Below, one piece after another: positions 27,305-59,705 of a stretch of DNA of 64,000 nucleotides (within the stretch, counting starts at the first letter, position 1; each line of letters starts with the position of its first letter). A program made the position numbers and the translations under genes. Origin of the DNA: Deltaproteobacteria bacterium (lineage in GTDB: Bacteria > Myxococcota > Myxococcia > Myxococcales > Anaeromyxobacteraceae); contig JACRMN010000023.1 of the NCBI GenBank assembly GCA_016214955.1, positions 62,001 to 126,000 on the forward strand, written 5' to 3'. A model generated the notes under the pieces. That model made no database searches, was not told the DNA's origin, and saw only the letters and a list, made by a program, of their open reading frames with translations.

Positions 27305-27350
27305 CTCAGCGCCGCCGGCGCCTCGCCTGGGGGTGCGGGTGCCGGACATG
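27305..27350. repeat. Left direct copy of the uvrB 3' end
   Basis: Positions 27305-27329 are identical, base for base, to 28648-28672, which contain the uvrB stop codon. After an 11-nt unmatched gap (12 nt at the other copy) both continue with GCCGGACATG (27341-27350 and 28685-28694). The shared order and spacing exclude chance. Confidence 0.85.
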
Positions 27351-27576
27351 GGGGGTGCGGGTGAGGGTGCGGGTGCCGGAGGGTGCGGGTGCCGGGGGCG
27401 GGCGGGGGGTGCGGGGCGGGGGCGGGTGCCGGACATGCGGGGTGCGGGTGCCGGACATGTGCCGGGGGCGCGTGGGTGCGGGTGCCGGACATGGGGCGGG
27501 GGGGCGGGTGGGGGGCGGGTGCCGGACATGGTGCCAAGGGTGCGGGGGATGGCTTGGATGGCTTGTGCCGGACATG
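27339..27576 (+). repeat. Six GTGCCGGACATG repeats in a G-rich tract
   Basis: Exact copies lie at 27339-27350, 27426-27437, 27448-27459, 27482-27493, 27519-27530 and 27565-27576, with truncated copies near 27373, 27389 and 27460. They sit in a strongly G-rich + strand with many runs of three or more G, so the tract could form G-quadruplexes. Spacing is irregular (22-87 nt), unlike a CRISPR. The 27244-27608 interval holds no gene. Confidence 0.85.
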
Positions 27577-27608
27577 CTTGGCCCGGCCGTTGCTTTCCCT
27601 CGCGACCA

Positions 27609-28292
27609 ATGCCCCGCGTTTCGCGCGCGATGCTCGTCGAGGCCGGCTCGACCAACCACTGCACCTGGCGCAGCCACGGCTTCTCCTTCGTCCTCGACTC
27701 CGATGGAGCCCGCCGCCATTTCCTCGGACTCCTCCGGAAGTACAAGGAGAAGTTCGGCATCGAGGTCCAGTCCTACTGCCTGATGGGCTCGCACCCACAC
27801 CTCATGTGCCGGTCCACCAAAGGGCAGGCTGCGTTCAGCTCCTTCTGGAAGCTCGTCAACTGGGGCTTCGCCTACTGGTACAACCGGCGGACCAGGGGCC
27901 GCGGACAGGTCGTCATGGAGCGCCTCCGCTCGCCTCGCATCCAGGACGGCCGGCATCAACTCGCCGTCATGCGCTACGGCGACCTGAACCCCGTCCGGGC
28001 CGGGCTCGCTTCGAGCGCCGGCGACTGGAGGTGGTCGAGTCACCGGCACTACGCCTACGGTGAACCCGACGACCTGGTCACCGACGCGCCCGAGTACCTG
28101 GCGCTGGGCGGGACTGCTGCCGAGCGCCGCAGGGCGTACCTGCACCTCTTCGCGGTCCCGCTGGTGGAGGCGCTGCTGACGCGCCGGCGGGACCTGGTCG
28201 ATGCGCCCTTCATCGGCGAGGAGCGCTGGGTGGCCAGGCGGCTTCGCGCCTGCGGGCTCTCCCCTCCGGGCGAGCTCGTTGCGCGGGCCTGA
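27609..28292 (+). CDS. REP-associated tyrosine transposase (RAYT, IS200-like)
   Basis: 227 aa, Transposase_17/Y1 family. The metal-binding HUH motif reads HPH (MGSHPHLM). The C-terminal part has the RAYT signature YGDLNPVRAGL followed by DWRWSSHRHYAYG. The middle segment, where family members usually have FQGRF, reads VMERLRS. Candidate catalytic Tyr is in FAYWYNRR. RAYTs cut and join single-stranded REP hairpins; the GTGCCGGACA clusters on both sides are the likely substrate. Start ATG at 27609 follows the last upstream repeat by 32 nt. Confidence 0.82.
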   Translation: MPRVSRAMLVEAGSTNHCTWRSHGFSFVLDSDGARRHFLGLLRKYKEKFGIEVQSYCLMGSHPHLMCRSTKGQAAFSSFWKLVNWGFAYWYNRRTRGRGQVVMERLRSPRIQDGRHQLAVMRYGDLNPVRAGLASSAGDWRWSSHRHYAYGEPDDLVTDAPEYLALGGTAAERRRAYLHLFAVPLVEALLTRRRDLVDAPFIGEERWVARRLRACGLSPPGELVARA

Positions 28293-28498: not shown

Positions 28499-28575
28499 TA
28501 TCACTGCGGTTCTTGTCCGGCACGCCCCCCCCTATCACTGCGGTTCTTGTCCGGCACGCCCCCCCTCTCGGCACG
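28499..28575 (-). repeat. Two tandem 34-bp units with inverted core
   Basis: A 34-bp unit beginning TATCACTGCGG starts at 28499 and again at 28533. Each carries TGTCCGGCAC (28514-28523 and 28548-28557) followed by a run of C, and a third partial copy (CGGCACGCCCCCC) follows at 28569. TGTCCGGCAC is the reverse complement of the left-hand core GTGCCGGACA. The interval 28576-28647 is C-rich and has no gene. Confidence 0.85.
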
Positions 28576-56220: not shown

Positions 56221-57555
56221 GTGAGCCCCACGCCAGATGCGGGGAGCGGCGCGCCACCTGGCGCGTCGCTCGTGCACCTGCGGCAGGCGCTGGCTGCCGC
56301 CCGCGGCCGCCGCCGGCTCGACCTCGTCTACGAGGCGCCCGACCCGGCGGCCCTGGTGCGCTCGCTGCCGGCCGAGGAGCTGTACTTCACCATCCGCGAC
56401 ATCGGCCTGGCCGACGCCGCCGAGCTGGTGCGCTTCGCGACGCCCGGCCAGTTCCGCGCCCTCATCGACCTCGACGCCTGGCGGAAGGACCAGCTCGACG
56501 TCTCCCGGACCCTGCCCTGGCTGCGCGCCGCCCGGGCCGGCGCCCGCGGCGACGACCGGCTCGAGGCCGCCTGGCGGCGGAAGCTCACCGCCCTCGACAT
56601 GGAGGTGGTGGAGCTGGTGCTGCGCGACTCGCTGCGCATCCACGACCTCGCCGAGGATCCCGACCCCGAGATCGAGGGCGATCGGTTCCTGCGCACCACC
56701 GAGGGGAAGTTCATCGTCGAGTTCACGGTGGACGGCGCCGAGTACCTGGCCGTGCGCGGGCTGCTCGAGGACCTCTACGCCGAGGAGCCCCTGCGCGCCG
56801 CCCGCATGCTCACGGCGCTGCGGTGGGAGCTGCCCAGCGAGCTGCACGAGACGGCGCTGCGCTGGCGCACCGGTCGGCTGCGGGATCTGGGCTTCCCCGC
56901 CCTGGAGGAGGCCCTGTCCTGGTTCGCCCGCCCGGCCCGCGGCCCGGCGCCGTCCATGGCCGGCGGCCCGCCGCGCCCCTCCGGCTCCTCGCTGGCGCTG
57001 CGGCCGGCAGGCTCGCTGTTGGGGACGGCGGCCGAGGGGGTCTCGGAGGAGCGGCGGCAGGTGCTGGAGGTGGAGCTGGTGGCCGCGGCCAACGCCACGC
57101 TGGTGGCCGACGGCGTCGATCCCTCCGACCTCGAGGCCGTCCGGGGCGCCGTGGAGGCCTCCCGCGCCCTGGTCGAGCTGGGCCTCGCGGCCCGCGCCGG
57201 GGGCGACCCCGCCGGCGCGGTGGCCGCGCTGGAGGCCGCCCCGCTGAAGGTGCTCTTCCAGGAGGGCTTCGGCCGGTTGCTGCAGCTCAGGTGGCGGGCC
57301 GAGAAGGTGCGGGCCGCCCTGGCCGAGCGCAGCCTGGGCTCCCCCCTCGACGAGGCCTTGCAGGCCCTGGTCCGCAGGCGGCCCCGCTACTTCCCCGGCC
57401 TCGAGGCCGACCGCGCCGACTGGGACACCCCGGTGGCCGCCGCCTTCGAGTCGCGCCCGTTCCTCTCGGAGGCCGACGTGGCGCGCGCCGAGGCGGCGCT
57501 TGCCGAGGCCGAGTCCCGGGCCGCGAACCCCGGGCCAGGGCCAGCCCCAGCGTAG
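56221..57555 (+). CDS. DUF6178-type protein
   Basis: 444 aa, cytoplasmic, mostly helical, with a Pro/Ser hinge near 240-260. The N-terminal LPAEELYFTIRDIGLADAAELVRFATPGQFRALIDLDAW is typical of the DUF6178 proteins found in deltaproteobacteria and myxobacteria; no function is known. Start GTG at 56221. Its 3' end abuts the structured element at 57561; the stop TAG is at 57553-57555. Confidence 0.72.
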   Translation: MSPTPDAGSGAPPGASLVHLRQALAAARGRRRLDLVYEAPDPAALVRSLPAEELYFTIRDIGLADAAELVRFATPGQFRALIDLDAWRKDQLDVSRTLPWLRAARAGARGDDRLEAAWRRKLTALDMEVVELVLRDSLRIHDLAEDPDPEIEGDRFLRTTEGKFIVEFTVDGAEYLAVRGLLEDLYAEEPLRAARMLTALRWELPSELHETALRWRTGRLRDLGFPALEEALSWFARPARGPAPSMAGGPPRPSGSSLALRPAGSLLGTAAEGVSEERRQVLEVELVAAANATLVADGVDPSDLEAVRGAVEASRALVELGLAARAGGDPAGAVAALEAAPLKVLFQEGFGRLLQLRWRAEKVRAALAERSLGSPLDEALQALVRRRPRYFPGLEADRADWDTPVAAAFESRPFLSEADVARAEAALAEAESRAANPGPGPAPA

Positions 57556-57560
57556 ATCGG

Positions 57561-57959
57561 CTAGGAGCCTGTCCCCGTAACGCCTCGCCCGGCAGGGTCG
57601 AGCAAGGTGGCTCGCCCTGGCGCGCGGCGAGGCGAGGCGTGCTGACGAGTCGGTGGGCGGGGCCAGCGTCCGCTGCGCGGCCCACCCGACCGAGCGGAGG
57701 CGGGGCCTCACGCCGAAGCGCCAGCGGTCCGACCTCGATCTGCGTTGCCCCATCGGACCGCGGACCGGCGACGTTTGTGCCCTGCCCAGAAGCAGGACCG
57801 TCACCGGAGGGCGGAGCCGATGCCCTGCCTGCGCCACAGACGGTCCTCGAGCGTGGAGCCGCGTTGCCTCTTCGGCACCGACGCGGGCGTCGGCCGCCAG
57901 CGAGGCGTGAGGCCCCGCCGCAGCGCTGTCCCGGACCCCGTACTCGGACGCGCTCCTAG
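57561..57959. other. 400-bp multi-hairpin element with terminal inverted repeats
   Basis: Terminal arms CTAGGAGC (57561-57568) and GCTCCTAG (57952-57959); extended arms match at 12 of 14 positions. Inside, left to right: ACGCCTCGCC/GGCGAGGCGT (57580-57589/57631-57640) enclosing CAGGGTCGAGC/GCTCGCCCTG (57593-57603/57610-57619); GTCGGTGGGC/GCCCACCCGAC (57649-57658/57680-57690); then a 15-bp perfect stem 57700-57714/57904-57918. That stem encloses CGGTCCGA/TCGGACCG (57725-57732/57753-57760), GGACCGTC/GACGGTCC (57795-57802/57839-57846) and CCGACG/CGTCGG (57878-57893). All stems nest without crossing. No protein-coding signal. Either a structured RNA or a non-autonomous mobile element. Confidence 0.75.
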
Positions 57960-59518
57960 GCGCGCGCCAGCGCCTGCCGCGGTGCCGCGCTCGCGCGCGC
58001 CAGCGCCGGAGCAGGGCTGCCCTCGAGCTGGAAGCTCCCGGCCATCGTCCCGAGCTCCTGGGCCTCGACGGCCAGGTCGTCGGCAGCGGCCGCCGAGCGG
58101 CTGGCGTGGGCGGCGCTCGCCTGGACCACCGCGTCCACCTGCGTCACGGCGGCGTGCACCTTGTCCACGTCGGAGAGCTGGGCCCGTGCGGAGGTGGCGA
58201 TCTGCGAGACGATGTCGCTCACCTCGCCGACCGCCGAGAGGATCTCGGAGAGCTTCGCGGCCACGGCGCGCGAGGTGGCCTCGCCGTCGCCCGTCTGCTT
58301 CACCGACTCGCGGATCAGGCTCTCGGTCTTCTGGGCCGCCTGCTTGGAGCGCAGGGCCAGGTTGCGCACCTCGTCGGCAACCACCGCGAAGCCGCGGCCG
58401 GCCTCCCCGGCGCGGGCCGCCTCGACGGCGGCGTTCAGCGCCAGGAGATTGGTCTGGAAGGCGATGTCGTTGATGTCGCGGATGATCTGCGAGGTGCCCT
58501 CGGCCGAGGCGCGGATCTTCGCCATGGCGCTGCCCATGGCGTCGACGGCCTCGGTTCCGGCGCTGGCCGAGTCGCGGGCCTTGCGGGCCAGGCCGTCGGC
58601 GGCGGTGGCGCTCTCCACCGCCTTGCGGGTGGTGTCGGCCATGGCGTCGAGGTACCCGGTGGCCTGCTCCACCGTGACCGCCTGCTTTTCTGCGCCGTCG
58701 GCCACCTGCTGGCTGGCGGATGCGATCTCGGCGGCCGCCCCGGAGACCTTGGCGGCGGCGGCGGCCACCTGGCCGATGGCCTGGTGGAGCGCCCCCGCGG
58801 CGGCGTTGAGCGCCTGCTGGGTGCGGGCGTGGTCGCCGACGTGGCGCCCCTCCATGCGGGCCCGCAGGTCGCGGGCGGCGATGGCCTCGAGCACCCGGAC
58901 CGCGTCGCGGACGGGGTTGGTGAGGTCGTCGAGGAGCTTGTTCACGTTCTCCAGCATCTTGCCGTTGTAGCCGCTGTACCGGGAGGTGTCGGCGCGGTTG
59001 GAGAGGTTGCCCTTGGCGGCTGCCTCGAAGACGGAGGCCAGGTCGGCGTTGCGCATCCGGATCATGGCGGTGAAGGCGTTCATCTGCTTCACCGCCTCCT
59101 GGAAGTCGCCCTGGTACCGCTCGGGAATGGGCTCGGGCACCACGCCGCTGGCGAAGGTCACCGTCCAGTCGATGGCCACGCGGATGAGCTGGCCGAAGGC
59201 GTCGGCGGCCTCGTTGGTGGCGGCCAGCAGGCCGCGGAACTCCGGCGGCGCGGCACCGGTGTCCACCCGCACCTCGAGGGCGCCCTGGGCGATGCCCTCG
59301 GCGACCCGGCGCGTCTCCCGCTCCACCGCGCGGATGGCGAGCCCGACGTCGCGGGAGAGGAGCAGGCCGAGGACGGCGAGGCCGATGGACCCGGCCACGA
59401 GGAGCGCCACCTGCACGCCGGCGGGGACGCCGAGCAGCGGGCCCGAGGCCGCGCCGATCCCGAAGAGCACGGCGGCAGCGATGACGGTGGTCAGCTTGAG
59501 GCGAATGGAAACGTTCAT
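57956..59518 (-). CDS. Methyl-accepting chemotaxis protein
   Basis: 520 aa. Two close membrane spans (about 8-28 and 33-53) with almost no periplasmic loop, a HAMP-like segment (about 55-110), a helical region with a second HAMP-like unit (about 200-260), then the signalling domain with the conserved hairpin tip ([35 protein letters not shown] in part). It would sense a membrane or cytoplasmic signal and drive CheA. The TAG stop (57956-57958) lies inside the terminal repeat of the adjacent element. GGGAGG precedes the ATG. Confidence 0.88.
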
Positions 59519-59705
59519 GCCTGTCCTCCCGGACCCGTATGGCGGGTCGGATAGTTCAAGCCACGTGCCCTGGCGCGCACCCGGCCGGGCGAGGGGCAAG
59601 TGATGGATTCGCGGGTCTGTAGGCGTTCACTTGGCGCGCGGCCTGCCCCGAAGGGCGGGAGTGCGGAACGACCCGAGTCGCGGGCGTGCCGGTGCGCCCA
59701 GGCCT

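Follow-up and report, generated by a model that had tools for sequence, protein, structure and literature searches.

A folded, non-coding repeat at gene 3' ends is probably an IS5-family MITE with an unusually branched core

Location and anatomy of the element

The analysed window, a stretch of 64,000 nt from a bacterium of the Anaeromyxobacteraceae, contains a 399-bp element between a gene for a DUF6178 protein (+ strand) and a gene for a methyl-accepting chemotaxis protein (MCP, - strand), which confirms the convergent-gene setting given in a preliminary description of the locus. The features of this copy, here called W, are as follows (window coordinates):

57561..57959, unstranded: whole element (subgroup A copy W), CTAG at each end included, 399 bp; delimited by homologous copies and the inverted end match
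56221..57555, +: neighbouring gene, DUF6178 protein, outside the element
57956..59599, -: neighbouring gene, methyl-accepting chemotaxis protein, its stop codon at the element junction
57561..57582, +: left terminal inverted repeat CTAGGAGCCTGTCCCCGTAACG, agreeing at 16/22 positions with the right end once the latter is reverse-complemented
57938..57959, -: right terminal inverted repeat, CTAGGAGCGCGTCCGAGTACGG in - strand sense, resembling the C12 and C3 right ends
57562..57563, unstranded: left TA, presumed half of a 2-bp target duplication
57956..57958, -: right TA and first element base, which together form the stop codon (TAG) of the MCP gene; junction in 5/5 copies
57580..57640, unstranded: left hairpin 1, arm doubled (GGCGAGGCGAGGCG), found in the W copy only
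57650..57689, unstranded: left hairpin 2, mostly W-only
57695..57924, unstranded: repeated core, 230 nt, common to four copies at 85-90% identity
inside 57695..57924: 34-nt invariant block CGCCGAAGCGCCAGCGGTCCGACCTCGATCTGCG
57699..57714, +: closing stem (16-bp perfect), left arm; two neighbouring pairs differ between the subgroups by compensatory changes
57904..57919, +: closing stem, right arm
57724..57761, unstranded: core hairpin GCGGTCCGA...TCGGACCGC
57765..57807, unstranded: core hairpin CCGGCGACG...CGTCACCGG
57809..57869, unstranded: core hairpin GGGCGGAGCCG..., which in C4 has a perfect 11-bp pairing (GGGCGGTGCCG/CGGCACCGCCC)

The terminal arms read CTAGGAGC (57561-57568) and GCTCCTAG (57952-57959), and the former occurs only 38 times in the 5.3-Mb host genome (30 contigs, assembly 95.6% complete). 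These other sites were considered as further copies and rejected, many of them being a stop codon beside a Shine-Dalgarno sequence at a gene junction. The left 130 nt of W (57561-57693) are found in this copy only. No TA dinucleotide occurs between 57580 and 57940, so the interior of W offers no target for TA-directed insertion.

The inverted repeats previously noted here, comprising a terminal arm, two left hairpins with the first doubled and a set of inner hairpins, are real, and the perfect stem that had been put at 15 bp is present with a length of 16 bp. This is the longest perfect inverted repeat of the element and exceeds what was obtained from 60 dinucleotide shuffles (mean 9.2, maximum 14 bp). 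The minimum free energy of the 399 nt corresponded to z-scores of -4.39 (+ strand) and -5.19 (- strand), with 0/100 shuffles as stable on either strand. In the consensus structure of the core, built from four sequences, 97% of cells pair. Interior pairing in the RNA minimum-energy folds varies from copy to copy, and thus only the closing stem and some of the hairpins are robust.

Copies and distribution

Homologous copies, which the preliminary description had proposed to search for, exist in the host genome: with W counted, four copies carry the core, and one more, C3, is internally deleted. A covariance model of the core recovered exactly the four full cores. The copies measure 399 bp, about 265 bp or about 275 bp and encode no transposase. 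C12 is 87% identical to W over W positions 106-399, while the cores of C27 and C4 are 88% and 85% identical to that of W; C27 and C4 are 90% identical to each other across the entire 271-nt unit, ends included. C3 has kept both outer parts; an ordinary deletion between two GAGGCG repeats has apparently removed its core.

Outside the host, the element was not found in 146 related genomes or in the plasmids and phages searched, and 195 genomes of the phylum gave only short GC-rich matches. Scanning 84,980 genomes and IMG/VR for exact 18-mers yielded 37 and 2 matches, respectively; each spans only about 18-55 nt, and chance could produce such matches in GC-rich coding DNA. The element matched no Rfam family, a tRNA search found none in it, and a consensus scan revealed no promoter-like or terminator-like site. 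A coding reading (RSDLDLR frame) was rejected: a 7-nt deletion in C4 breaks the frame and the stops differ between copies. No frame is conserved across the copies, in agreement with the lack of coding signal noted earlier.

Two additional sites were inspected as possible element ends. TATGAGCCTGTCCCCG on contig C22 was rejected, as a cytochrome-oxidase-like gene starts there. At L065 (C27:161302), TAGGAGCCATCCGAGCACC directly follows an apparent TAG stop codon and may represent a lone end of an element of this class.

One core with two sets of ends

The copies fall into two subgroups according to their ends. In subgroup A (W, C12 and C3) the right end, read inward, is TAGGAGC[CG]CGTCSGAG, and the left end of W carries the inverted matching repeat TAGGAGCCTGTCCCCG, 16/22 identical. 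The terminal repeats TAGGAGCCYGTCCNNG are found at the left and right of W and in C12 and C3; allowing at most one mismatch, no further site in the host genome retains the TAG. Subgroup B (C27 and C4) has the right end TAGRAGCCATTYMA and the left end AGGAGGCYGRCGTAGG. Between the subgroups the cores are 85-88% identical, and the ends are unalignable past about TAGRAGC.

C12 and C3 are missing a recognisable left end, and a 31-nt module takes the place of the left 130 nt of W; in these two copies the left end is lost or exchanged. A conserved core between two end types is not what a simple MITE predicts. It is possible that ends were exchanged by recombination, or that the core was nested into two carriers.

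The 31-nt palindromic module (GGCGGCTCCGGCCGGCGCGCCGGC) is also part of a second, unrelated dispersed repeat, which is intergenic, about 500 bp long and 72-79% identical between copies:

L070, C12:49.8-50.4 kb: second-repeat copy
L072, C13: second-repeat copy
L073, C27:124.6 kb: second-repeat copy
L069, C30:133.5 kb: second-repeat copy

Insertion at TA and stop-codon junctions

Two copies, W and C4, show TA on the left as well as on the right; the ends of C4 are short, and the left end of C27 reads TGA. Immediately before the right TA, C3 has G where the other copies have C, so the shared unit begins at TA (usually within CTAG) rather than at CTAG.

Each of the five copies ends on the right in the TAG stop codon of a neighbouring gene; the codon is rebuilt from the target TA and the first base of the element, a G. 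The five genes encode a chemotaxis receptor and a pyruvate phosphate dikinase (PPDK), both Pfam-tested, and a TorD-like chaperone, a small protein and a glycerate-kinase-like protein, named from a reading of their sequences. GC3 stays at or above 0.9 right up to the TAG codon, which marks these as genuine gene ends. By an approximate gene call, the window has 78 TAs that are non-coding or belong to stop codons, and 24 of them are stop-codon TAs; if the copies are independent, five stop-codon junctions out of five have a probability of about 0.003. Left ends do not have this pattern. An orientation effect at the right end is accordingly possible, with few copies to judge from. An empty site was sought among MCP orthologues (a paralogue family, uninformative) and in the PPDK neighbourhood (relatives too diverged), and none was found.

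A candidate mobiliser in a related genome

Profile searches of the host genome with PF13340 and PF13358 gave 0 matches: neither a DUF4096-type IS5 gene nor an IS630-type DDE_3 gene was found, and no autonomous partner in this 95.6% complete assembly. For a MITE derived from IS5/IS427, having the cognate transposase in the same genome is the usual situation but no requirement. A complete IS5 element with CTAGGAGCC ends may have been lost from the host assembly. A genome of the same genus (G002) contains one DUF4096/IS5-type gene, whose transposase matches NCBIfam IS5 and has a broken frame:

L185:1051-1846 (genome G002): degenerate IS5-family insertion sequence, 796 bp, ends CTAGAAGC...

A blind inverted-repeat search around this gene delivered the ends CTAGAAGCAGCTTCAAAACC and CTAGAAGCCATTTCAAGACC. 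In ungapped comparison, the second of these G002 ends (CTAGAAGCCATTTCAAGAC) is identical to the C27 end CTAGGAGCCATTTCAACAC at 17/19 positions and to the C4 end at 15/19. When the C27 end was shuffled or reversed, no score above 15 was reached anywhere in the 30 loci compared. The match is limited to one end of the insertion sequence and one of the two element end types: neither the left end of subgroup B nor the subgroup A ends match the G002 element specifically, and the latter have only the general IS5 form that is also seen at other loci, e.g. CTAGGGGCTGTCCCTGAT. The G002 insertion sequence has GCGC on both sides, which suggests a palindromic target, GCGCCTAGGCGC.

Elements of the IS427 group have inverted repeats of 13-21 bp and 2-bp duplications in nearly all cases (PMC3281130). 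The copies described here share with this group of the IS5 family the CTAG/TA target, the short terminal inverted repeats and, at one end of subgroup B, the 17/19 identity with the G002 end; they differ in having no transposase and in their length of about 265-400 bp, compared with about 830-865 bp for the insertion sequences.

An IS5-family MITE as the best explanation

Bacterial MITEs are 100-400 bp long, have terminal inverted repeats and end in TA; when transcribed, they fold into stable stem-loops (PMC5896051, PMC2229807). The generic features are present here: dispersed copies, terminal inverted repeats within the 4-30 bp range and with TA, no coding capacity and a length within the 100-400 bp range. 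We consider it probable that the element is a non-autonomous MITE of the IS5 family, of an IS427-like group, with an unusually branched core. Subgroup B can be placed in the IS5 family with good confidence, subgroup A by analogy. A G002-type IS5-family transposase is the likely kind of mobiliser, judging by the similarity of the ends.

On this explanation, an IS5-family transposase acting in trans would have recognised the terminal repeats, and the element would have inserted into TA, usually in CTAG, with duplication of the TA. In a genome of 74% GC, where TA is rare, the TAs of TAG stop codons would be among the few harmless targets; as the element begins with G, the TAG would be restored, and insertions at gene 3' ends would be silent and survive. 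The source of the transposase was presumably lost later from the host genome, in which no DUF4096-type IS5 gene was found.

The IS630/Tc1-mariner family could supply a MITE with the same target, as TA with a preference for CTAG is the published target of IS630 (Tenzen and Ohtsubo 1991, as quoted in PMC2170065). This origin is nevertheless very unlikely, since the host genome has no DDE_3 gene and the sole specific end match, among the 30 loci compared, is to an IS5-family element. Mobilisation of a REP/BIME-like palindromic repeat by the host's Y1 (REP-associated tyrosine) transposase has to be weighed as well, because a gene of this type (RAYT-like) is present in the window, another copy adjoins the C4 element, and subgroup B has GTAG ahead of its closing stem:

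27609-28292, +: REP-associated-tyrosine-transposase-like gene (NF047646, below cut-off)
27330-27580 and 28510-28570: GTGCCGGACATG repeats around the RAYT-like gene

Contigs C4 and C29 carry similar RAYT-like copies at their ends. We regard this route as extremely unlikely. Subgroup A has GGAG in place of GTAG, the RAYT-like gene is flanked by its own, different repeat (GTGCCGGACATG), and terminal inverted repeats with TA ends fit a DDE-type insertion, not Y1. Nor is the element a GTAG followed by a single short palindrome, as 189 nt separate the two arms of the closing stem.

A functional structured RNA, either a 3' UTR element or a small RNA with a selected core that was spread by transposon ends, would account for several observations: the core is 85-90% identical though the ends differ between subgroups, every copy lies directly 3' of a gene, the + strand of C27 folds with a z-score of -7.1, and two neighbouring compensatory pairs (CCTCACGCC/GGCGTGAGG vs CCTGGCGCC/GGCGCCAGG) preserve the closing stem. 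However, double changes affect 2/82 pairs, a value equalled in 205/500 shuffles (four sequences only), and homogenisation of the inverted-repeat arms could yield the same compensatory pairs; either this or selection explains them. Across copies, the fold z-scores favour neither strand steadily, and the negative Rfam and promoter/terminator searches, as well as the absence of copies from the 146 relatives, also speak against an RNA. We therefore judge it unlikely. A functional, selected RNA or DNA hairpin held between two unrelated IS5 end sets and delivered to stop codons is likewise improbable; if true, the selected core would give genes a new structured 3' end. We take the folded interior to be mainly the self-complementarity typical of MITEs, with any RNA role secondary.

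The preliminary description had offered a large structured RNA or a MITE. The outcome that it had set as a refutation, in which homologues, covariation and an excess of inverted repeats over shuffled sequence would all be lacking, was not observed. The latter, folded mobile DNA, is borne out by the dispersed copies, the terminal inverted repeats with TA and the end shared with an IS5-family partner; for the former there is nothing beyond the two compensatory pairs in the closing stem, as no other excess of covariation was seen. Its statement that no named family fits holds literally, but a known kind does fit: the MITE family is new, and the kind of element is well known.

Several characterised MITEs provide a frame for comparison. 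RUP of Streptococcus pneumoniae (partner IS630-Spn1) is also small and non-coding with a terminal TA, and mobilisation in trans is thought likely; it differs in sequence, is smaller (107 bp), has more than 100 copies and an IS630 partner. ERIC and Correia/NEMIS resemble the present element in form: they are intergenic MITEs, imperfectly palindromic, with TA ends and transcripts that fold extensively. The core described here differs in being multi-branched and about twice as long. At one locus of Coxiella burnetii, QMITE2 lies at a gene 3' end with a stop codon at the junction (PMC5896051), an arrangement found here in all five copies.

A literature search for this bacterial group turned up no description of a MITE. 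The element provides an example of how a transposon may spread harmlessly in a compact, GC-rich genome: TA is rare there, a good share of its non-coding TAs belongs to stop codons, and the initial G of the element rebuilds TAG. With one non-coding core on two end sets, modular exchange of MITE ends becomes testable.
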